A stretch of 64,000 nt of DNA from Arabidopsis thaliana. Its lineage: Eukaryota > Streptophyta > Magnoliopsida > Brassicales > Brassicaceae. Below are positions 18,328-32,502 of this stretch, one piece after another. Within the stretch, counting starts at the first letter, position 1, and each line of letters opens with the position of its first letter. A program made the position numbers and the translations under genes. Below the pieces are notes generated by a model. The model was not told where the DNA came from and did not search any database. It worked only from the letters and a program-made list of their open reading frames with translations. The stretch covers positions 23,997,835 through 24,061,834 of the forward strand of contig NC_003076.8 in the NCBI RefSeq assembly GCF_000001735.4. The letters are read 5' to 3'.

Positions 18328-18666
18328 TTACCGCCTGTGTTGTTGGACAAACTTGGAGTTCTTGGCGTCTTCCTCTGCAAAATGAGTCAATACATTTACT
18401 AATTAGGGTTTCACAACCAGCGATCCAACAATCAATACTGAGACACAATACATCAATATATCCGATCCGATTCCACAAATACGGATCAATTGAGGATTAG
18501 CTCTTTCATTTCCGATGACGATTGGTCAGATCTGAAGAGACTTACCAGTGAGTCCAGCGGTGAGCTTGGTGATGAGAACGCCGGTAACGGCGAATCCGGT
18601 GAGAAACGGCCAACAACGTTTCCATTCTCTCTTGAAGAACACTGGCCATGGATCGAACAACCTCAT
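18328..18666 (-). CDS. Mitochondrial F-type ATP synthase 6-kDa subunit
   Basis: A two-exon gene. Exon 1 (18666-18546) and exon 2 (18374-18328) join across a GT-AG intron to give 55 aa. The protein starts MRLFDPWPVFFKREWKR, has one hydrophobic membrane-spanning segment (WPFLTGFAVTGVLITKL) and ends in a charged tail (SKFVQQHRR). This is the plant MtATP6/6-kDa subunit family (AT5G59613), a small inner-membrane protein of complex V. The promoter on the right carries TGGGCT (18825-18830) and GGCCCA (18848-18853), site II elements typical of nuclear genes for mitochondrial respiratory proteins. Confidence 0.88.
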
Positions 18667-18900
18667 CTTTCTCTTTTTCTCTTTTTGTTCTCTTTGGTCT
18701 TCTCTCTAAACTTTGGTATCTGGATGAGTCGGAGACTGCTTCGCGTAGAGACAGATGAAAGTGACAACAAAACACTGATGGATAGGTAATAGTTACTGGA
18801 TCCGAATTCTTTCTGGATATTTAATGGGCTATCCAAAACTCAATAAAGGCCCAATAAGTCTTCTAGTTAATTTGTAAAAGGCCACTAATGACCGTTGCGT
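18667..18900 (-). promoter_or_regulatory. ATP synthase subunit promoter with site II elements
   Basis: TGGGCT at 18825-18830 and GGCCCA at 18848-18853, 18 bases apart, upstream of the minus-strand start at 18666. Paired site II (TGGGCY) elements bind TCP factors and mark many nuclear genes for mitochondrial proteins. Confidence 0.55.
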
Positions 18901-20280
18901 TTAAAACGCGAATTTCCCGCGACTGCGTTTCAAGCACTCTGGAATTGTTTTTTCTCATGTTAATCCACTTCTATTTGTACGTTTTACCACGGTGCTGCTC
19001 TTTGAATTAGCTTCAAGATTGATCTGTCTATAATTTCTTGGTTCGAAGCTATTATTGTGAAAGGAAATTGTCAAAGCTTGTTTCATTAGAGAAAACATGG
19101 AAAAATGGACCAATTCAAGTTAGAGACCACTACAAATTCAAATCCGTGTGTATTGCTCTCTCTCTATGAACATTCTTATTGTATTAGCTATAGAATGATA
19201 AACTATATAACAGTTGAGATCAATTGAACTGGTCTTTCAAAAACCAAGTTGCCTATATCGTCTGACCAAGAAATTTACATATGTTTCTTAGGATAATGTT
19301 AGGCTATTCAAGTTCTTGATTGTGATGTCCGGAGATTATTTTCCTAGTCTTCTTGTGTTTTTCGATAGAAAATACATTTACTCATTTGTTTCAGTCATAT
19401 ACCATTTTTATATTTGCACACTAAAGACCTCTTCTCATGTAACCAGAGCTTTTATTTGCCTTACATGTCCGTTTATGTTTATTTCATACATGCGCTGTTG
19501 TTTGTGTCACAAGGTACCGGAATGATGTCTATGATCGTGTATGGACTACGTTTTCAAGGAATGAATGGACCCACATTTCCACCACCCTGGAAGTGAGCAA
19601 TTCAAACAAATATTTTCCACCAAAAGAAGCACTCAAAACTGCTGCAATATCTACTAATTCAACTGCACCATTGACGATGGAATGGAGTTCGAGTAATGTC
19701 AATAACCAATATTACTTGTATGGACATTTTGCTGAGATCCAAGAGTTGCAGACCAACGATACAAGGGAATTTAACATGTTTTGGAATAGACAAGTCATCG
19801 CCGACCCTTTAATACCTCCAAAATTCACTATTTATACTATCTTTAGCCAGTCACCAAGTACTTGTGAAGGAGGAAAATGCAGTTTTCAGCTGAGAAGAAC
19901 CAACAGATCAACTCTTCCACCTTTGCTTAACGCTTTTGAGGTCTACACAGTTATCCAGTTTCCGCAGATCGAAACAAATGAAAACGACGGTATGTTATGC
20001 ATATAAGGTCTATACTATTGTTTTATGTTTAGAAAGGTAGTCAAATTATTTCTGTGTTAACTCAAGTATCATAAACTAAAACATGTTATGTCAGTGGTTG
20101 CTGTCCAAAACATCAAAACCACCTATGAAATTAGTAGAAATAGCTGGCAAGGAGATCCATGTGTCCCTCGGCAGTTTATGTGGGAGGGATTAAACTGCAG
20201 TGACACTGATATGTCTACACGACCAAGAATCACTTCTTTGTAAGTCATAAGATCACCCCCACTACAATAAAAACTGAATA

Positions 20281-20790
20281 TTGATACGATTATTATAGTT
20301 ACAATAAAAAGATATTCGGTCACAATAATTTTTTTGTGTCGAAACTGAAACAAATTTTAAAATGTCACAATAAAATCGTCACAAATCTATGTATGTCTCA
20401 AAAAGGTCACAAACGAATGTGACGATTAACAACAGTAACAATTTGTCACTGATTGTGACGACGTTATTATAGTCGCAAAAACGGATACAATTCGTGACGA
20501 ACGATACTGTCACAACTATGCCACAACTAGTGACAATAAAATCGTAACATACTTGTCACAGATTATTACCATATTTAAGTCACTGGCCCGTTACATTTTA
20601 CGACCAAAATACAATCACAAATCCGTCACAATTAGTGACTCGATTATAGTCACACAAACGTCACAAATTGATTTTATGTTGTGACATTTTTTCTTACTAA
20701 ACTCGTATCAATTTGTTACAAAACTAGTTTCATGAACAACACATGGACGTTTGGTCACAAACGTATGATTACCTTTTTTTGCTTTTACTA
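20281..20790. repeat. Left subterminal repeat array of the CACTA element
   Basis: Many copies, in both orientations, of a short motif around GTCACAA / TTGTGAC with variants (GTCACAAAC, CGTCACAA, GTGACGA). In En/Spm elements such arrays are bound by TNPA to bring the ends together. A matching array is at 31960-32345. Confidence 0.75.
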
Positions 20791-21101
20791 ATTGCAGTCA
20801 TTCTCTTTATAAAATTATAACGAACATATTTTATAGAAATTATTAAACAACATCCGATAAACAAATTGACTAATAGAAACCATAATTTATAGAAATCATA
20901 AAACAATATCCAAATAAACAAAATACAATACTTAGGTTAATGCAAATAAAACAAACCATAACATCCAAACAAACAAATAACATCCAAATAAAGTCAAACT
21001 AGAAACACAACTTAAAGCAAATACAAACTAAACAATACTTAGGCTAAAAGGAACCATACATAAGATAGATTAAGTGGACGTTCTTGGTGGTGGGTTTGGA
21101 T

Positions 21102-22771
21102 CTAGACATTTTGACTTGCAAAAGTCTCAACAAGTTTTTCCATAGCTTCAAGTCTTTTCTGAATTTGCAGATTCTCTTCAAGGCTCTTTTTAAGATCAGT
21201 TTCCATCTCTTGTAGCCGATGCGTTATCGTCTCTACTTCTTCTGAAGCTTGTGGTGCACTTGAAGAAGCACCAACAGATGGTAGAGTCTCCATTAGTGCT
21301 CCAAGTCCAAATATATGGCCATGTTTAGATGATCCAGCAGCCTAGAATGAAAGACTAAATATATTAGCAAAAACAGAAAACACTACAAGTCATCTAACAA
21401 GGCTTGTAGAACAAATGATAAAACGATATCATCTAACAAGGCTTGTAGAACAAATGATAAAACGATATGCACATATTTTTTTTTGGATGTGAACTTGGAT
21501 ATCTTTTAGGAACCAAATTTGATAACCAATTCTAAACCGGACTAATGAAAAGGAACGTACTTGTTGAGAAGTAAAAAAAACACGCTTTATAAAATGATAA
21601 AAGTTAGGGCCGTTGAGAAGCAAGCACAAAACACGTCAACACTAAACCTGAAGCAAACAACACTAAACATCTAACAAGTTTTATAAAACGATAGTTTTAT
21701 CTACACATATCACAAGAACAAATAAATGTAAAACCAGAGACTAACAAGGCTAAAGTGAATGTAAAACTATAGACTAACAAGCCTAAAGTGAGTGTAAAAC
21801 CAGCCTAATGTTTAGAATTATTACCTTGATATAAATTTCATTTTTCTCATGGTTGTCAAGAGTTTCAGCTCTCAGATTCTCTTCCCCAGCAGATTCAAGT
21901 TGACCCAAGCGTTCTTGTACATGCTTTTCATAAGTGTCTGCAACCAACCGCGCTCGTTGATCAACGTACGAGCCATCAGGTTTCTGATGTGTTTTCTTCA
22001 TCACAGCAATAAAAGAGTAGTCTTCATTGTTTGCTTCCTGTAAAAGAAACAATAAGCCAAAGTGAAACAGCAGAAAAATTATCACGATTAGAAATTAACA
22101 AGAAAGGAAATATATAACTACCAAAACATCTTTAACTCTGAGAAAGGAGCGTGAACCCGCTCGATGGGAATGTGGGCCTAAACCGTTGCGATCAGACATT
22201 CGAGAAGCACGAGCCTTCTCACTAGTTGCTTTCACTTTTTCAGTTGCCCAATACCTTTGCATAATGGTCCAGTAGTCAGACAATATCCAATCTGGTTTTT
22301 CTCCTCCACTTTTTGCATGGCTTATCATTCCTTTGAGGCGATAAGCAGCAAGCTTATTAAACTCTTTTTCAACTTGATAGTTGATGGAATCATCCCAGTT
22401 AAATCTTTTCTGAAAAACAAAGTATATCACACATGATGAGTAACATTGAAATCACTTACGAAAATAATCTGATGAAATAGAGCACAAAGAATACCTTAAA
22501 CAGAGAAAACCATGATCGTTTGTAGAAGGGTGGCACTCTTTTCCAAGAACACCATGGTCCCTTAAAACAACTTTGAATGACCTTTCTTACAGCAGTTGAT
22601 ACTTGAGTGTGGTGTTTAAACCTGTTTCATTGAAATTAATTAGTTAATGAGTTTAAGATTCAGTGAAAATAATCAAAGAAATATAGGGAAAAATCCATAC
22701 CATTTAGCTCCATTCAAACGAGAAGGATGCAGCAAAGGTAAACTTGAACGGTCCACATATGGCTCATCCAT
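21102..22771 (-). CDS. TNPA-like transposon protein (Transposase_24, Ptta/En/Spm)
   Basis: Multi-exon gene inside the CACTA element. A plausible start is ATG at 22771 (MDEPYVDRSSLPLL...). Exons read LNGAKW, then FKHHTQVSTAVRKVIQSCFK with GPWCSWKRVPPFYKRSW (about 22619-22496), then RFNWDDSINYQVEKEFN...WILSDYWTIMQRYW (about 22409-22110). Next is DYSFIAVMKKTHQKPDGSYV (about 22038-21830). The last exon has a GLGALMETLPSVG motif and a coiled-coil tail (to 21102). The GPW-W segment and MKKTHQKPDG motif are hallmarks of plant Transposase_24 proteins. Exact boundaries are approximate. A 39-bp perfect tandem duplication (21391-21468) lies in an intron. Role: binding subterminal repeats during transposition. 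Confidence 0.75.
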
Positions 22772-22849
22772 AAGTACACTACAAACACATGTAAATTCAG
22801 AAGTTATCAATCTTGAATTCTACAAAGCGAAAACTTAGAAAGCTCATAT

Positions 22850-23457
22850 CAAATAATAAAAAACCTAGAGATTTCATCATTTCTTATCTATATTCAGAAA
22901 TAGTAATCCAAGTTGAGAACTATTAGCAAAACCCAGAAATTTATTTACAACGACTAACATGAATAATTTTTAAAAAAATACAAAACTAGAGACATGGAGA
23001 TTTGAAAGACAGTAGGAGAACAAAGATTTGCAGTTTAACATCTAGATTAGCTTCTAAAAATCCAGAGTTATGTAAAAATACCTTTCAATGAGATCTCTGA
23101 AGTAAAAGACAAACCAATCTCTCTAAAAAAAAGGAAGTAGCGTAGAGAACGATTCTGAGAGATAGAGGGAGATGGTTACATAGTTTTGACGCAGATTTAG
23201 GGATTCTTATTGAGTGGGGAAAATTTTGGCAAAATTTAAGCGGTTAATGAAAATTTTAGGTATTTTTGGGAAAGTTTAAGGCGCTAATGGTGTAATTATT
23301 TTCCAAAGGATCTAGAATATTCTCGTAGAAATATTTACTATACTTATTTGCATATTTTTCGCAGAATTAACTAAGAATTTCTAAATACTTTCCTAATTCT
23401 AATATTTTTACTTCCAAGAAAAACTTTAAACCAATCTGCATTGTAAAAGAAATGTAC
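22850..23457. other. CACTA interior, non-coding
   Basis: AT-rich DNA upstream of the TNPA-like gene, probably its promoter. No coding segment recognised. Confidence 0.5.
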
Positions 23458-23523
23458 CTTATCCATGTTAGGAACAAGCTCTTGCAGCCTCCTAATCCGA
23501 TCACTTATTCACGTTCTTCTCAC
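23458..23523 (-). pseudogene. Captured bHLH exon (FBH type) inside the CACTA element
   Basis: A 66-base segment bounded by acceptor TTTTGTTAG and donor GTACATT on the minus strand translates to VRRT, a stop codon, then ISDRIRRLQELVPNMDK. This is helix 1 and the loop start of FBH-type bHLH factors (bHLH80/122/128/130 group). The exon boundary after MDK matches the intron position I recall in that family. The TGA replaces the family Arg (CGA to TGA is one transition). With one exon and an internal stop it cannot make a bHLH factor, so it is a transduplicated fragment. Confidence 0.75.
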
Positions 23524-23598
23524 CTAACAAAATGAACAGAGAAAAGCTTAATGACAAAACAAGAATGAGATAGAAACAGAATTGGTACTGCAAATCAT

Positions 23599-23800
23599 CT
23601 AGCACAAACTTTTTGAGAAAGTGATGGATTCCTTTCCTGAATCAGAAGAGTCTTTCCCAATATCACTATCTCGTGGAACGACACCATGCACTACTAAAGA
23701 CTTATTATCCCCTGCTTGTCCAGTAGAAGTTGCTGGAGTACTTAGAGATCCTGACTTGTGTGCAACAGCCGAATTTCTGCCTGTAGCTTTGAAGAGAAGA
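23599..23800 (-). pseudogene. Unidentified captured fragment next to the bHLH exon
   Basis: Open minus-strand segment encoding a Ser/Gly-rich stretch (SGSLSTPATSTGQAGDNKSL, VVHGVVPRDSDIGKDSSDSG). Its base composition is more gene-like than the surroundings, and it sits between the kinase fragment and the bHLH exon on the same strand. I do not recognise the donor gene. It could be an upstream exon of the bHLH fragment or a separate capture. Confidence 0.4.
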
Positions 23801-24040
23801 GAGAATATTAAACCAAATATAAACGATAAGCATACAAAAGTAAGAGACAAATGAAAATCCAGCTCACGAAGAATAGCATTTCCATCATTACAAAAATCTA
23901 TGTCTATTTTTATTCTAGTTCCCCAATTTAAAATGAAGTGGTTTCGTGTTCCTGTGTTTAAAAAGAACACTTTGAGATAAATGCTAAAGTCTTATATTCG
24001 CACTATAGAACTGATAAAATACAGTTAGTCATTATTGTCT

Positions 24041-24360
24041 TACCTGACATGTGTTCTTTTAAATCTCCATTGGACATGTATTCATATATAAGAGCCAAGT
24101 TCTCTCCTTCGTCACAGTATCCAACAAAGGCCTACCAAATTCTTGTGATGAACTCTAAGAAGAAGTTCTACCTAAATACCCAGCCAGAAATCAGAAGTTA
24201 TAGATATATATCCTTCAAAATATTTGAATCATTGATGCTTTTGTTTCAATTAGATAATGATGAAAGTGTGAATTTACCTCAGCTTTGAATTGTTTATATC
24301 CTTGAGATGAAGAATGGGAGAGTATCTTAATAGCTACTTGTTCAGTACCATTCACCAACT
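24041..24360 (-). pseudogene. Captured LRR-RLK kinase exons inside the CACTA element
   Basis: Two minus-strand exon segments. 24357 to about 24276 encodes [26 protein letters not shown] (kinase subdomains II-III). About 24131-24041 encodes [27 protein letters not shown] (subdomains IV-V). Intron-like DNA between them matches the exon border of the local LRR-RLK family (after KAE). The closest relatives in this window are the RLK cluster genes themselves, but residues such as AIKILSHSS differ from every local copy. The donor was therefore probably another member of the subfamily. No catalytic HRD or DFG segment is present. Confidence 0.8.
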
Positions 24361-25000
24361 ATCAGAGACAACACTCAATCTATCCAATTAAACTATAATC
24401 GTGAATTCAAAACCCAATTCAAACACCCAATTAAACTATAATCGTACAATCAACAGAAATTGGGAACTCGAACGAGTCACGACTCCTTATCACTCTAAGA
24501 AGCTATGTTAAACAAAGGTTAGGTTTTAAACCTTCTTCTTCATCTTCTTCGAGTAGGGTTTCAATCCAAGTAGCTGGAGCTGAACGGATCCGAGATAAAC
24601 CAATTCGACTCTGATAGGTTGAAGATACCCTTAGCTTTCATGAAGAAGAAGATGAGAACCAGTGGAAGGAGGGCTCGTAAATGGGAGAAGAAACATGGGT
24701 GAAAAGTGGCTAGAAGTGAAGAAAAGAAGAAGTGTAGAGACTTTGAACAAAAAAAAAATAAAAAGAATAAATAAAGAAGAAGTGTCGAGAAGCCTCTGTT
24801 TCAATTGTACAATTGTGTTAAACGATGTCGTTTATTAAACTCAGTTGTATTTAAATGGATCCCAAACTTTAGGGTTTCCTTATCTTTTGAAAATCATATT
24901 ATTCTCCTACTCTAACTTTCTTCCTTCTCTTACCTTATTCTCTTCTCATCGAATTCCATTTCTGTTCTAAGTTAGGCTTCGAGCTTAGCATCTCACCTTT

Positions 25001-25140
25001 CCTCCTCCTCCTCCTCCTCCTCCTCCTCCTCCTCCTCCTCCTCCTCCTCCTCCTCCTCCTCCTCCTCCTCCTCCTCCTCCTCCTCCTCCTCCTCCTCCTC
25101 CTCCTCCTCCTCCTCCTCCTCCTCCTCCTCCTCCTCCTCC
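25001..25140. repeat. Uninterrupted CTC/GAG trinucleotide repeat, 140 bp
   Basis: About 46-47 perfect CCT/TCC units without a break, flanked by gene-like GC-richer DNA (ACCACCGCTACTTCCACC). Depending on frame it reads as poly-Pro, poly-Ser or poly-Leu (+), or poly-Glu, poly-Gly or poly-Arg (-). The resulting open frame on the minus strand is a consequence of the repeat and not evidence of a gene. Likely variable between accessions. Confidence 0.95.
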
Positions 25141-25539
25141 ACCACCGCTACTTCCACCGCTTCCTCCGGTGAGCCCATAGATTTTGTAATTTAGAATTTT
25201 TACTTCTTTTTTCTAAACCATTATTTTTGTTTAAGTAAATTTAAGGTGTATTAGAGCCAATTTTGAGATAAGATGTGTGTTTTTAATATATAGTTTGTTA
25301 ATAAATATTTAATAAACTTTCTTTTGTTTTTAAAATGTGAATTAAAAACATTCAATCAAAAATTTCAAACATATTTTCTAATGACTTAACATATATTCAA
25401 ATTGTTGTATCACGAATGGCTGATTCTTTATTTTTTTTTTACCCTGTAACCTATAGTAAATACTCACTTTATCATCAAATCTTTATAATTGTACATACTA
25501 ATGAATTTAAAAATAAGAGGAGAAATAATTTACGACGAA

Positions 25540-25920
25540 ATTGGATTTGGAACTAATCAAGTTTTCGAGGTCCATCCATGTTTGCGTCGCTCCAACGTAT
25601 TCACCATTTTTAATTTGTCTTTTAATCTTCTCTGCTAAGCTGCTCCAAAAAAAAGTAAACTATATAGATTAGAGAGGTAAATTAATTACGTATTAGAAAA
25701 ATTGATTTTGTATTAAGATAAAGACCTATTAGAGCTATCCAAGCCATTGTCATCAAGCCTAGAGACATGCTTGAGAAGAGGTCCCCATGAAAACTGTAAC
25801 AATTAATCAATAAAAATCATATGAATAGAATTTAATCATAAATAAATAAGAGTAACATGTTTTAAAAAAATGATGAAACTCACCACAAAATCTTCAGGGG
25901 ATATCCAACTATCTCCCAAA
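25540..25920 (-). pseudogene. Captured serine carboxypeptidase fragment (SCPL51-like)
   Basis: Three colinear minus-strand exon pieces with introns retained. About 25920-25876 reads GVILGDSWISPEDFV and is followed by a donor. About 25795-25727 reads FSWGPLLKHVSRLDDNGLDS. About 25640-25545 reads SLAEKIKRQIKNGEYVGATQ then WMDLENLISSKSNFV. These match the middle of SCPL51-type carboxypeptidases (AT2G27920), as I recall it. The last piece breaks off where the family continues DFYNF. Catalytic Ser, Asp and His regions are not included. This is a genomic capture, not a retro-copy, because intron sequence is present. Confidence 0.8.
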
Positions 25921-26289
25921 ATCACTCCTAATCACACATATTATAAAATAGAATTATTTGTCTACTACATTATTAGTTTCATTTTATTCAGAGAAAAAAA
26001 GACTGATATTGTGGTTGTCCATGTTGTCGTCAATCACAATATCATTGTCCTTACTGTTCTTCTCCGTTCTTTCACCTACATGATGTTCCATCGGTAACTA
26101 TAATGAATCTACTATAGTTGTTATATCCATTTATAAGTTCTAAAAACAAATACACATTTATTATGTAAATTTTGATGAATAATTTATCGAGAATTTGTTT
26201 TGCTTTCTTATTAAATATTAGACGAGTGGAAGGTTTTATGGCTATAATAACTATGGTAATAGCTCCCCGGACCAGCATACACTTAGGCG

Positions 26290-26345
26290 TAGTTCGACTA
26301 CAATAAAACCTGAATATTGATATGATTATTAAATCACAATAAAAA
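26290..26345 (+). repeat. Internal copy of the CACTA left terminus
   Basis: GACTACAATAAAACCTGAAT and the following ~35 bases repeat the element's first ~50 bases (from 20260) with few differences, in the same orientation. The first base is G instead of C. This suggests that two related elements, or a terminal duplication, lie behind the composite structure. Confidence 0.75.
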
Positions 26346-26428
26346 CTTGTTTTTCTATTTCATGCAATCTAGAAAAACTTATTCAGCATGAAATTAATAA
26401 ACAAAAACTAATTAAGCAAACCTATTTA

Positions 26429-26797
26429 TTACTTTTTTGGGTGAAATTCTCCATAGACGTGTGGCCAATAAATTTTATACATATCTATTATGGTTTTTTG
26501 AATTTCTTTATTTGGGTCTAGCTCTCCATCTGCAAAAACTGTAAATCCATTTGAATCGAATTTAGGTTGAACGTTTTTGTCTTTTTCCGTTTCTTGAACA
26601 AATCCATCTCCAGGGTGAAACTCTCCTCCATCTTCATAATAAAACGTTTTGTTTAGATCAAATCCATGATGAACTTTTTTTCTTTTCTCCGTTTCTTGAA
26701 CAACCTCTGCTTCTTCCACCTTCTGAACATTTTCCAATTGAATCGTTTCTTGTTTCATTTTTTCTATAAACATGAAATGATCAAAAATTAATATCAA
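26429..26797 (-). CDS. Hypothetical ORF inside the CACTA element
   Basis: 122-aa open frame, or about 110 aa from the Met preceding KQETIQLENV. Unrecognised. It shows an internal duplication: QETEKRKKVHHGFDLN...GGEFHP and QETEKDKNVQPKFDSN...GELDP, about 35 residues apart, and a C-terminal GEFHPKK. Charged, soluble-looking, no membrane segment. It could be a further captured fragment or a TE-encoded accessory protein; expression is unsupported. Confidence 0.35.
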   Translation of the reverse strand: MILIFDHFMFIEKMKQETIQLENVQKVEEAEVVQETEKRKKVHHGFDLNKTFYYEDGGEFHPGDGFVQETEKDKNVQPKFDSNGFTVFADGELDPNKEIQKTIIDMYKIYWPHVYGEFHPKK

Positions 26798-26799
26798 AA

Positions 26800-27976
26800 C
26801 AAAACATGATACACCTTCTCAAAACCACATAAGCCAAGAGATATATTCCAAATTAAACCCCAAAACCTAACAACTTAATCTAACATAAACATATATTCAA
26901 AAGAAAAATTAATAACAACTTACATGTTTTCGGAGTTTGTAGAGAGGAGTGAGAGGAATGAGAGGAATTCCAAAATAAATCAGCAAATGGAAGTGAGAGA
27001 TCAAAAGAGTTTTGAATTTTGTTTAGTTAAATAGATATTCTTTTTTTTCGTCAGTTCAATAGATATTGCTTAAATTTAGGAAAAGAAATTTAACAAGGAT
27101 TTAGTCAAATAAAATTTGTGGATACTAATAAAACTATAAATAGGATTTAGCATCCCCACATATTCTCAAAATTGAACAAGTTATAGTCGGCGTCGAAGAT
27201 ATAGACGTAGCCTTCTTTCAATAATAGCATCTTCTGTTTTTATTTGGTTTATTGTTTCTTTATTCGATTATCATTGATCTGTTTTTATTTTTCTTCTATA
27301 GGTTGACTTTAATAAACTCCACGTTGGCCCTTGTTGTGTCCATCCCGTCTCGCCGTTTGAAACGTATTCGTTGTTCGCTCCATCAGTCCAATCCGTCAAA
27401 GTTGGAGAGAAAGGTATTCCAACAAACCCATGTCTCATGTTTGTTAATGATTTAGGTTGATATGAAAATAAAACCCTAACATAAACCAAGCACAAACCAA
27501 ATTAAATCAACAGATTCTTAGACTATTATACGAAAACTTGATTATAAAGGAATTGTCTGTCACGTATAAGAATCGTTAAACCGAGACTATTGTTGATTGT
27601 ATTTCTCTCGGTTTTATTTTTATCTATTTAGTTGCAGGTACTAATATCATTGTTTGCGTATAAAAGTTTTATAAAAGTTTTCGTATAAGAATTGTCGTAT
27701 AATTGTCGTATAATAGTCTAATAATTCCTTTATAATTCCTAAATAGATAAGAATCGTTAAACCGAGACTATTGTTGGTTTTGTTTGTCACGTATAAGTGA
27801 ATGGTCTTGTTTGTTGTGAAGGAGATGATAGCTTGGTCAATTATTGGTTTATTAGAAAACGTTGGTTTAATTGGTTAACCGGAGTAGTAACGTGAATTGA
27901 TTTGTTGTGTCATATTGAATTACGTCTTCCATCCAGAAATTTTATTTTATTTTCTCAACTATATTTTTAGGTTTTC
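26800..27976. other. CACTA interior upstream of TNP2
   Basis: Non-coding, probably the TNP2 leader. A 30-base segment (TAAGAATCGTTAAACCGAGA onward) occurs twice, at about 27567-27596 and 27747-27776. Between them are AT-rich runs with repeated TCGTATAA. Small frames at 27252-27495 have no domain. Confidence 0.5.
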
Positions 27977-30900
27977 ATGTCTTCAAATAGGAATATATAT
28001 GCTGAAAGACATTGGATGTATGAAAGAATCGATCCTACAACCAATCGAGTATCACAAGCTTTTTATGAAGGATTGGACAATTTTTTGAAGTTTGCAAAAA
28101 GTCAGCCTTTATTTTTGGAGAATAAAAAACTTTTTTGTCCGTGTATTAAGTGTGGAAATGGAGGAAGACAACAAGAAGAACACATCGTGGCAACACATTT
28201 GTTCAACAAAGGTTTTATGCTTAACTACTGGGTTTGGACTTCTCATGGGGAAGATTATAATATGTTAATAAACAACAATTCTGAAGAAGATACTGTTAGG
28301 TTTGAGTCTCACACAGAACCAGTGGATCCTTATGTGGAAATGGTGTCAGATGCATTTGGTAGTACAGAATCAGAGTTTGATCAGATGAGGGAAGAAGATC
28401 CTAATTTTGAGGCAAAAAAGTTTTATGATATTTTGGATGCTGCAAAACAACCTATTTATGATGGATGTAAAGAAGGTCTTTCAAAACTTTCCTTAGCAGC
28501 TCGACTTATGAGTTTGAAGACGGATAATAATTTGTCTCAAAATTGTATGGACTCGATTGCTCAGATTATGCAAGAATATTTGCCTGAAGGTAACAACTCA
28601 CCAAAGTCGTATTATGAGATCAAGAAGCTTATGCGGTCTTTGGGTTTACCTTATCAAAAGATCGATGTTTGTCAAGACAATTGCATGATATTCTGGAAAG
28701 AGACTGAAAAAGAAGAGTATTGTTTGTTCTGTAAAAAAGATAGATATCGTCCTACTCAGAAGATCGGGCAAAAGAGCATTCCATATCGCCAAATGTTTTA
28801 TTTGCCGATAGCCGATAGATTGAAAAGATTATATCAATCTCATAATACTGCAAAACATATGAGATGGCATGCAGAACACTTAGCGAGTGATGGAGAAATG
28901 GGGCATCCATCAGATGGAGAAGCATGGAAGCATTTTCACAAGGTACACCCTGATTTTGCTTCTAAACCAAGAAATGTTTATTTGGGGTTATGCACAGACG
29001 GTTTTAATCCATTTGGTATGTCAGGACATAATTATTCATTATGGCCTGTAATATTGACACCGTATAATCTGCCACCTGAGATGTGTATGAAACAAGAATT
29101 TATGTTTCTAACGATACTAGTTCCTGGTCCAAATCATCCTAAGAGAAGTTTAGATATATTTCTCCAACCATTGATAGAAGAGCTGAAAGATTTGTGGGTT
29201 AACGGTGTTGAAGCATATGATATTTCTACTAAGCAGAATTTTCTCTTAAAAGTTGTGCTCATGTGGACAATAAGCGACTTTCCTGCATATGGTATGCTTT
29301 CTGGATGGACAACTCATGGTCGGTTGGCATGTCCTTATTGTTCGGATCAAACCGGTGCATTTTGGTTAAAGAATGGTAGAAAAACATGTTGGTTTGATTG
29401 TCATCGATGTTTTCTACCGGTTAATCATAGCTATCGAGGGAATAAGAAAGACTTCAAAAAAGGAAAGGTTGTGGAAGATAGTAAACCGGAGATACTAACA
29501 GGCGAGGAGCTTTATAATGAAGTTTGTTGTTTACCAAAAACAGTTGATTGCGGGGGAAACCATGGACGATTAGAAGGATACGGTAAAACGCATAACTGGC
29601 ATAAGCAAAGCATTCTTTGGGAGCTATCTTATTGGAAAGATCTAAAACTTCGACACAATCTTGATGTGATGCACATCGAAAAAAACGTTTTGGATAATTT
29701 CATCAAGACGTTACTGAATGTGCAGGGAAAAACGAAAGATAACATCAAATCACGACTTGATTTGCAAGAGAACTGTAATCGCAAAGATTTGCACTTAACA
29801 CCTGAGGGCAAGGCACCAATCCCAAAGTTTAGACTAAAACCTGATGCCAAAGAGATATTTCTACGATGGCTCGAAAAAGATGTTAAATTTTCAGATGGAT
29901 ATTCATCAAGTTTAGCTAACTGTGTTGATCTACCAGGAAGAAAATTAACAGGGATGAAAAGTCATGATTGTCATGTTTTAATGCAAAGACTCTTTCCAAT
30001 AGCTTTTGCTGAGCTTATGGATAAATCTGTACACGATGCGCTATCTAGTAAGTTTCAACATTCGATTAATTTATTTTAATCTCTCTGCATTTTTATGTTA
30101 TTTTTTTTAGTTTTTAATTAAGACCGTTGATAGCGATATTTTTATTTATGTGAATCTATTAATTTTTAAATTGGAAGGTGAGCATGATTGTAATTTTCTG
30201 CATTTAATTTTTTTTAAAAAAATCATAATTATATAGCTCATAGAGATAAAAAAACATATAGATATGAGAATATTTTTAAATTATCATTAACTTTTTTGTT
30301 CATATTGTTTTGAGAATATTTACCATTTCTTCATATAACAGTTATTTTTTATATGTGTAGGTGTTAGCTTATTTTTTCGGGACCTATGCGCAAGAACTAT
30401 ACACAAAGATGGTATTGAAATGTTGCAAAAAAATATTTGTATGGTTCTTTGTAACCTCGAGAAAATATTTCCTCCTTCTTTTTTTGATGTCATGGAGCAC
30501 TTGCTAATTCACTTGCCACACGAAGCTAGTCTTGGAGGACCTGTGCAGTTTAGATGGATGTATTGTTTTGAACGATACATGGGACATCTAAAAAAAAAGG
30601 TGAAAAATAAGGCAAAAGTAGAAGGTTCGATCGTTGAGCAATACATCAATGAAGAAATTTCTACTTTTTGTACTTATTATTTTGATCGACACATCAAGAC
30701 AAAAAATCGAGCAGGAGATCGACACTATGATGGTGGTAATCAAGAAGATACACATGAGTTTGATGGAGTTCCAGATATATTTTCTCAGGCAGGAAGAGAC
30801 AGTGGGAAAGAAAGTGAGATATGGCTCCAAGATAAAGATTACCATATCGCACATAGATATATTTTGCGGAACTGCGATCAATTAAGACCATTTGAAAGGT

Positions 30901-31881
30901 ATGACAAAATAATTTGGACATCTGTATGGATTTTGTTTTTTTTTGTAGAATTAGTAAAAGACATTGTAAATATTTTTCATGGTTATATATGTATATATAG
31001 GTTGTTTGATGAGAGCTTGATCGCGGCTAATCCTGGGATAAGTGAAAAAGATCTAAATGAGCTTAGAGAAAAGCAATATTCAAGCTGGTTAAAAAAATAT
31101 GTAAGATATTTTTTTTTTATATGAGATAAATACTTGATAGCTTATAATATAGTATGTGTCTTTTTATATTGAATCAGGTGGAGGATACTTGGAAGGATAA
31201 TTCATATCCAGAGTGGTTGTTGAGTATTGTTCATGGTCCAATGGTTAAAGTTACTTGTTGGCCAATGTATTTTTGTCGTGGATACATATTTCATACATAT
31301 GATCATGGAAAGAACAAAAAGAATGCCAATTATGGAGTTTGTGTCAAAGGTACAACATCTTCTAGCTCAAATGAAGAAGCTGATTTCTATGGAATATTGA
31401 GAGAAATTTATGAGCTTCATTATCCTGGACATGTTGATCTCAAGGTCGTGGTCTTCAAGTGTGATTGGTATGATTCAAAAGTTGGGAGAGGTATACGAAG
31501 AAACAAGTCAGGGATTATTGATATTAATGCTAAAAGGCATTATGAAGAGTATGATCCTTTTGTTTTGGCTTCACAAGCAGATCAGGTATGTTATGTTCCA
31601 TATCCACGGATGACTCAGCCGAGAAAAGATCAACAATGGGAAGCAGCAATTATGATACAACCGAGAGGGAAAGTATTGATAACAAAAATCTGGATTTCAC
31701 TGCAATGCAGCATGATAACGATGATTCTATTGTTGAAGTTGATTCATTACAAATCGAGACACTATCATATCTAGATGCCCAACCAGAAGATCTTGATGAT
31801 CCAGTAGTAGAAGCCGAAGATGGATCAGATGCTGAAGATGGAAATTCTGATATCGAATTAACTAGTGACGAATCCGAATAA
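27977..31881 (+). CDS. TNP2-like CACTA transposase
   Basis: Exons by splice sites: 27977-30047, 30361-30898, 31001-31100, 31178 onward. The N-terminal transposase-associated domain (RHWMYERIDPTTNRVSQAFY, FCPCIKCGN) is followed by the large Transposase_21 domain. That domain shows YQKIDVCQDNCMIFWKE, MRWHAEHLASDGEMGHPSDG, CTDGFNPFGMSGHNYSLWPV and TISDFPAYGMLSGW. Exon 2 carries the DUF4218-type region (FFRDLCARTIHKDGIEMLQK, GPVQFRWMYCFERYMG). Exon 4 carries DUF4216 (FKCDWYDSKVGRGIRRNKSG, ASQADQVCYVPYPR). After about 31670 the acidic tail continues only in another frame, so there is either a small frameshift or a 36-base intron, which would be too short for plants. The catalytic part looks intact. 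Function: cut-and-paste transposition of CACTA elements. Confidence 0.82.
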
Positions 31882-31959
31882 TTTTTTTTTTCATTTGGAC
31901 TTTTTACAGCTTTTTTTGTATTATCAAAAACATTGTTTCCAAAACTGAAGAAGTTTTTT

Positions 31960-32345
31960 TATTTAATTTTTTGTTCACAAGTTTTTATTTTTGTATTAAA
32001 ATTGGTAACACTTATGTCACAATCTATGACCAAACGCAAAAGTCACTAAAACAGTGACAAATTGTGTCATCGTTGTTACAAAATTCTCGTAACTATACAT
32101 GACATAAATTCAGTCACAATTATCGTATAATTTAGTTACTATATTTGGTCGCAAATCCGTACTTATATTTATGACTATATAATTTGTAACAAATTTGACA
32201 TAATTAGTGACAAACATTAGTTACATTCAATTAAGTCATAATATTATAACGAAATAGTAACGTTTTTATGACCAAATAAATACGTCACAATTTTGTATGA
32301 AAATGGTCACAATTTTCTGACGAAAATAATGACCGTAATTTTTTC
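31960..32345. repeat. Right subterminal repeat array of the CACTA element
   Basis: Repeated GTCACAA / TTGTGAC / GTGACAAA motifs in both orientations, mirroring the left array. It ends near GATATTC-like sequence that, on the other strand, resembles the inner part of the left terminus. Confidence 0.7.
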
Positions 32346-32502
32346 GTAAGAATATCGATTTCTGACCAGACGCTCTTCAATATCCGTTAGTAGTTGTGAC
32401 ACTTGAATGTGGTTTTGGACATGTCACCAGAAACTTGTCTTCAAGTGGTCTAACTGGAACCATGGCTGCTGCGATTCAAAATCTTACGCAACTAGAAACT
32501 CT

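Follow-up and report, generated by a model that had tools for sequence, protein, structure and literature searches.

CACTA transposons of the Tgm-Express1 type in soybean and of the Tpn1 type in morning glory carry fragments of host genes. Pack-CACTA elements of Arabidopsis are described as non-autonomous and mobile in the available parts of PMC8903248 and PMC13317346, and PMC8903248 retells a model by Catoni et al. in which they acquire DNA by fusion of neighbouring insertions. Single-copy Pack-TIRs of animals display, according to the available text of PMC8277862, a gap-filling signature that comprises microhomology in at least one junction, a small loss and internal breakpoints, along with donors biased to the same chromosome and an element that was present before the capture. 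Within the portions available of three further reports, Chenopodium CACTA elements hold captured gene fragments outside their coding sequence, with the mechanism cited from Rubin and Levy (PMC8978399), maize Ds2-22 of the hAT superfamily contains exons and the intervening intron copied from another chromosome (PMC3260210), and repair by strand annealing during element insertion draws on pieces of genes as filler (PMC3445842).

The locus described here lies in a stretch of 64,000 nucleotides of Arabidopsis thaliana DNA (C5:23997835-24061834), referred to as the window; positions are those of the window unless preceded by a contig (C1 to C5). As far as the source excerpts describe them, Arabidopsis Pack-CACTA elements resemble the window element in their CACTA-type ends, in the host coding DNA inside and in species. 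The window element differs in that its insert patches a site of which two other loci hold an empty version. The preliminary description had used the term Pack-type, which is a loose fit: strictly, a Pack-CACTA holds captured DNA between two intact TIRs and is non-autonomous with no transposase gene, whereas here the 3' TIR is missing, two transposase gene regions (Transposase_21 and Transposase_24) are present at the sequence level, and one copy was found. With the animal Pack-TIRs, as excerpted, the window case shares a single copy, internal breakpoints, a tiny loss and microhomology at one junction, but those elements are animal and their donors tend to lie on the same chromosome, while the window donor is on another. 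Host gene fragments outside the coding sequence are common to the Chenopodium elements, although no junction with an insertion-free site was found in the text available for these. Ds2-22 is likewise similar in the copying of exons and introns from another chromosome into a DNA transposon, and different in being a hAT element (both from partial text).

The published account for capture by Arabidopsis Pack-CACTA elements is neighbour fusion, while the present junctions point to template-switch repair of a break within the element. The copy is so young (4 changes in 545 bp) that its donor, the insertion-free sites and the two junctions are all legible to the single base. The locus is a concrete capture case that can be tested by PCR, and a second case is provided by a sister element, in which another capture lies close to this position. 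No title or abstract opening in the literature searched names this capture; an earlier listing of the element, for instance in Catoni et al. 2019, is possible.

The CACTA carrier element and its relatives

A CACTA-type element occupies window 20260..32355, on the plus strand by the orientation of its tnp2 gene, and is taken here to be AT5G59620. That label had no mention in the 11 papers searched for it. The terminus CACTACAA at 20260 marks the 5' start. The main features of the element are as follows.

20260, plus strand: 5' terminal repeat CACTACAATAAAAACTG, start of the CACTA-type element
21786..22451, minus strand: Ptta/En/Spm Transposase_24 gene region, two ORFs (Pfam)
26297..26345, plus strand: internal copy of the 5' terminal repeat, closing the stretch that resembles C5:21.19 Mb
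27971..30076, plus strand: tnp2 transposase ORF with Transpos_assoc and Transposase_21 (Pfam)
30339..31121, plus strand: DUF4218 ORF, downstream of tnp2 (Pfam)

The Transposase_24 (TNPA-like Ptta) matches have E values of 2.8e-13 and 3.6e-17 and the tnp2-type Transposase_21 match one of 2e-80; the two gene regions form a divergent pair. The internal terminal-repeat copy starts GACTACAAT, and the element's own 5' repeat starts CACTACAAT. The element is located between pieces of one LRR receptor-kinase gene of a local tandem cluster. The element splits this gene into the pieces at 18442-20255 and 32403 onward, apparently in an intron.

Relatives at C5 12461656-12487946, C3 14455809-14460549 and C2 ~3533.9-3535.9 kb align up to window 32355. 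Beyond the aligned part all three terminate in TGTAGTG, at 12.49 Mb of C5, 14.456 Mb of C3 and 3.534 Mb of C2, and by inspection 3-bp target-site duplications flank the C5 relative (CTC) and the C2 relative (TTA). The 3' terminus of about 18 nt that these relatives possess is absent after window 32355, and the window copy is therefore probably immobile. Large internal gaps against the window, 26433-29073 and 25354-27355, are seen in the C3 and C5 relatives. A further relative, C4:3293606-3307125, shares the element as far as window 23397.

Several minor observations concern the same elements. In the C3 relative (C3:14459103-14460549) window 26432 is joined to 29074, which means either an internal deletion there or extra DNA inserted in the window. 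No 5' terminal repeat can be recognised in this relative by eye. Inside the window element a (CCT)n tract of about 140 nt is visible by eye at 25000-25140. A 129-aa ORF at 26429-26818 on the minus strand contains an imperfect DNA repeat; for its core of 113 residues the plant's own genome holds no further match. A tandem array at C4:1699703-1741089, with units about 1.95 kb apart, resembles the segment 26770-27326 at about 68%, rising to 86% in short parts.

The carboxypeptidase-gene fragment and its junctions

Window 25400-26100 was used as the query in a search of the plant's own genome (119.66 Mb, 7 contigs). The best non-self match, C2:11887441-11887985 (99%, E 1.3e-280), covers window 25458-26002, and compared base by base the copy and the donor differ at 4 mismatches with 0 gaps over 545 bp (99.27%). 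The donor gene is presumably AT2G27920/SCPL51, the gene that the preliminary description had named for a search across the exon-intron borders; the best match fell neither elsewhere nor to transposons only. In this search, which scores the best candidates, one copy was found in addition to the donor. The interval proposed at the outset, 25540-25920, corresponds to the exon core, and the insert around it is larger. Its parts and borders are the following.

25458..26002, minus strand: captured fragment of a serine carboxypeptidase-like gene, from C2:11887441-11887985
25884..25928, minus strand: captured exon 1 of 3, GVILGDSWISPEDFV, the first G of which belongs to the AG acceptor (by inspection)
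25726..25793, minus strand: captured exon 2 of 3, in donor order
25534..25642, minus strand: captured exon 3 of 3, with one amino-acid difference from the donor
25458..25461, no strand: left-junction microhomology AAAT, 4 bp (9-bp imperfect AAAT[T/A]CTCA), by exact extension
26003..26011, no strand: 9-nt filler CTGATATTG at the right junction, replacing GTACCA, by alignment to the insertion-free site
26035..26044, minus strand: CACAATATCA, exactly reverse-complementary to 26004-26013 and a possible template for the filler

On the minus strand the copy starts in an intron, runs through three exons and two whole introns and ends in a fourth intron, so that the two flanking introns are partly retained and both ends of the fragment are intronic. 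Both whole introns have GT..AG borders in the donor as well as in the copy, and the acceptor of the first captured exon is likewise kept, by inspection. When the exons are joined, a frame of 74 codons is open in both, and a single residue is replaced (donor T, copy R). The donor remains on C2, where its gene extends past both sides of the copied part (ORFs, by eye).

When the donor exons are joined, they match serine carboxypeptidases of solved structure, with 1whs_A as the best (E 3.9e-16); this alignment stops at query residue 160, within the first of the captured exons. Directly upstream of the captured part, the donor has an exon that matches Peptidase_S10 (E 6.2e-13). In Pfam, the captured exons together with the one that follows them (145 aa) had no match. 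The donor family is accordingly named mainly from exons that were not captured, as the Peptidase_S10 and 1whs_A support falls mostly outside the captured part. The exon with the ESYGG serine motif lies outside the fragment, as presumably do the catalytic Asp and His, and the copy therefore probably encodes nothing useful. Should a minus-strand transcript of the element run through it, the copy would be carried along as spliced sense-strand baggage.

The site without the insert can be read at two loci: C3:14459435-14459596, part of a CACTA copy, and C5:21193117-21193271, where only the older stretch is in common with the window. Both read TAAATTCTCA-GTACCA-TGGTTG. In the window, TAAATACTCA is followed by the donor fragment, by CTGATATTG and by TGGTTG; six bases (GTACCA) have been replaced by the donor copy and a 9-nt filler. 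These are the two loci that span the site. The C5:12.46 Mb element is uninformative on this point, since it lacks the region. Because two of two spanning loci read GTACCA with no insert, the insert is derived. Derivation of the host C2 gene from the element was considered and rejected, as the gene continues on both sides and two loci are free of the insert. The breakpoints lie 5198 and 6353 bp from the ends of the element, with 6 bp lost.

At the left junction, an overlap of at least 4 bp has a chance of 0.025 (200,000 random junctions); against this stands that AAAT is a short match for AT-rich DNA. At the right junction, TGATATTGTG comprises 8 of the 9 filler bases and two element bases and forms a 10-bp inverted match about 30 bp away. 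Random 9-mers had an equal or longer match in 15/4000 cases within 50 bp and 21/4000 within 100 bp, rising to 86/4000 within 300 bp and 297/4000 (7%) within 1000 bp, so that the support fades with radius in a test that was devised after the match had been seen.

These results confirm, and extend, what had been read from the sequence alone: that a CACTA element (here with Transposase_21 and Transposase_24) carries a genomic carboxypeptidase-gene fragment, and that three exons in the right order, with introns retained, sit on one strand. The earlier interpretation as DNA-level transduplication and not retroposition is likewise supported by the retained donor, introns and splice sites and by the derived state of the insertion.

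Other host-derived stretches between the transposase genes

The carboxypeptidase capture is not the sole one but one layer of an element that has been patched repeatedly, and several host fragments lie in the same stretch of the element, also between the two divergent transposase genes. In the plant's own genome, window 23600-24460 matched the sources of a receptor-kinase fragment (99%) and of a fragment from C1:22567667 (97%). The further host-derived pieces are listed below.

23410..23613, minus strand: older captured gene fragment, 94%, from C1:13040109-13041381
23610..23856, minus strand: third captured fragment, from a C1 gene, C1:22567667-22567913, 8 mismatches in 247
23857..23890, minus strand: 34-nt scrap of a TCP-1 chaperonin gene exon, C5 about 9258200, 2 mismatches
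23891..23903, no strand: 13-nt filler that separates the chaperonin scrap from the kinase fragment
23904..24358, minus strand: LRR receptor-kinase exons with an intron, from C1:19243806-19244259
24416..24611, minus strand: further pieces of the C1:13.04-Mb capture
25122..25162, minus strand: last piece of the C1:13.04-Mb capture
25186..26296, no strand: older stretch like C5:21192921-21193486, split by the carboxypeptidase insert

The receptor-kinase fragment differs from its C1 source at 2 mismatches and one 1-nt gap over 455 positions, and its Pfam match of 20.1 bits is below the curated cut-off. An origin in the local receptor-kinase cluster is disfavoured, as the only local match listed is 68% similar against 99% for the C1 gene. 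The chaperonin piece, whose donor is presumably CCT3, matches Cpn60_TCP1 at E 1.1e-6 and 28 bits, also below the curated cut-off. For the C1:22567667 donor one ORF had no Pfam match at E 0.001, and of two more ORFs searched at E 1 one had none and the other a MatP match at E 0.022, below the cut-off.

The kinase, chaperonin and C1:22567667 fragments are nested in older captured DNA. The C1:13.04-Mb pieces are 94% similar to their source for 23410-23613 and 83-93% for the others, and this capture is common to the window element and the C5:12.46 Mb element. Its source is presumably the bHLH gene FBH1; two ORFs of the donor had no Pfam match. The stretch resembling C5:21192921-21193486 is 80% similar to the left of the carboxypeptidase insert and 96% to the right. 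It ends where the internal 5' terminal repeat begins (26297), and the C5 locus continues there with other DNA.

A sister element at C5:12.46 Mb carries, at C5:12464957-12466146, a fragment of a DUF702 gene (presumably STY1) from C3:18964978-18965461. This insertion lies within about 20 bases of the point at which the C1:22567667 fragment starts in the window. Element DNA of about 130 bp is found on both sides of the DUF702 fragment; the flank copies are only 87% alike, and the repeat therefore need not date from the capture.

The coding strand is readable, by eye, in 6/7 host-derived stretches, namely the carboxypeptidase, kinase, C1:22567667, chaperonin, bHLH-type and the sister's DUF702 gene, with the C1:22567667 strand judged solely from a long ORF; in the seventh, the C5:21.19 stretch, no coding strand stands out clearly. 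All six lie on the minus strand (p 0.03, or p 0.125 if three adjacent fragments are one event), and this strand bias is a lead rather than a result.

Junctions of these captures, six in the window and two in the sister element, can be grouped into overlaps at 3/8 (AAAT, TTTT and GC) and a gap or filler at 5/8. The five gaps are the 9-nt filler described above, 4 nt at the border between the C1 and chaperonin pieces, which is a mismatch and not a true filler, 16 nt (13 by another alignment), 13 nt, and 21 nt to the left of the sister element's captured fragment; part of these gaps are mismatches close to the junction. Serial joining with short fillers is clear, and microhomology at the junctions is not the rule.

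Routes of capture and age

The carboxypeptidase capture is best read, with a probability of about 0.65, as break repair by template switching inside an assembled CACTA element. A double-strand break or a stalled fork would have arisen between the two divergent transposase genes, and one strand end would have primed on the AAAT microhomology in an intron of the C2 carboxypeptidase-like gene. About 545 bp would then have been copied through three exons before the template was left. Element DNA about 30 bp from there could have served as an inverted template for a few bases, after which the new strand would have rejoined the element with 6 bp lost and the C2 donor unaffected. For this capture we infer the break itself, the direction of synthesis and the enzymes (SDSA or polymerase-theta-like joining). 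Host fragments strung together from unlinked sources (C1, C5 and C1), with a 34-nt scrap and short fillers, are what serial template switching would be expected to leave.

The same junction signatures are predicted by abortive gap repair after excision, of the Rubin-Levy type, in which the gap would have been refilled from a sister copy, one end would have wandered to the C2 gene and the ends would have met inside. This main rival is unlikely, though it deserves serious weight: the large internal gaps in the C3 and C5 relatives are compatible with it, and the missing 3' terminus could be the trace of a faulty excision or repair. However, just 6 bp were lost, more than 5 kb from either end, whereas larger losses and breakpoints nearer the ends are expected for this route in the available text of PMC8277862. 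For the fusion of neighbours, by which two nearby CACTA copies would lose their inner ends and move as one, enclosing a piece of a host gene, the evidence divides between the two layers of the element. The older C5:21.19-like stretch is fairly accounted for in this way, with the internal 5' terminal repeat at its end and the C5 locus continuing differently from that point. The carboxypeptidase fragment, in contrast, has no element ends as borders and interrupts the older stretch with 6 bp lost, and its donor gene runs on past both sides of the copied part, all of which makes fusion a very improbable source of it. A retroposed copy of the carboxypeptidase mRNA, in favour of which nothing was found, is refuted by the two complete and two partial introns and the intronic ends; with exons, whole introns and GT/AG sites retained, the fragment was copied as DNA and retroposition is ruled out. 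Template-switch repair within the element is thus preferred for the carboxypeptidase fragment. An earlier role of fusion in this element is suggested by the terminal repeat inside it at 26297, and both routes may have contributed to its assembly.

More tentatively, the stretch between the transposase genes may be a recurrent site of break repair, with host captures layered by template switching and persistence only of insertions that are sense to the element's minus-strand transcript, since these would be spliced quietly and yield no antisense RNA to host genes. In such a history, which is possible but doubtful, an old layer of the bHLH-type gene and the C5 DNA could have been followed later, and independently in the different sister copies, by the kinase, chaperonin and C1 gene fragments with the carboxypeptidase gene or by the DUF702 gene. 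If true, a recurrent site would constitute a route of capture for plant CACTA elements distinct from neighbour fusion.

Divergence gives some indication of age. Under an assumed rate of 7e-9 substitutions per site per year, with two equal branches, the carboxypeptidase copy is about 0.5 Myr old. The captured fragments need not share one age, because the C1:22567667 fragment is more diverged (8/247) than the carboxypeptidase and kinase fragments together (6/999; p 0.002). The carboxypeptidase copy and its donor (4/545) and the element and its C3 relative (36/3704) are equally close (p 0.81).
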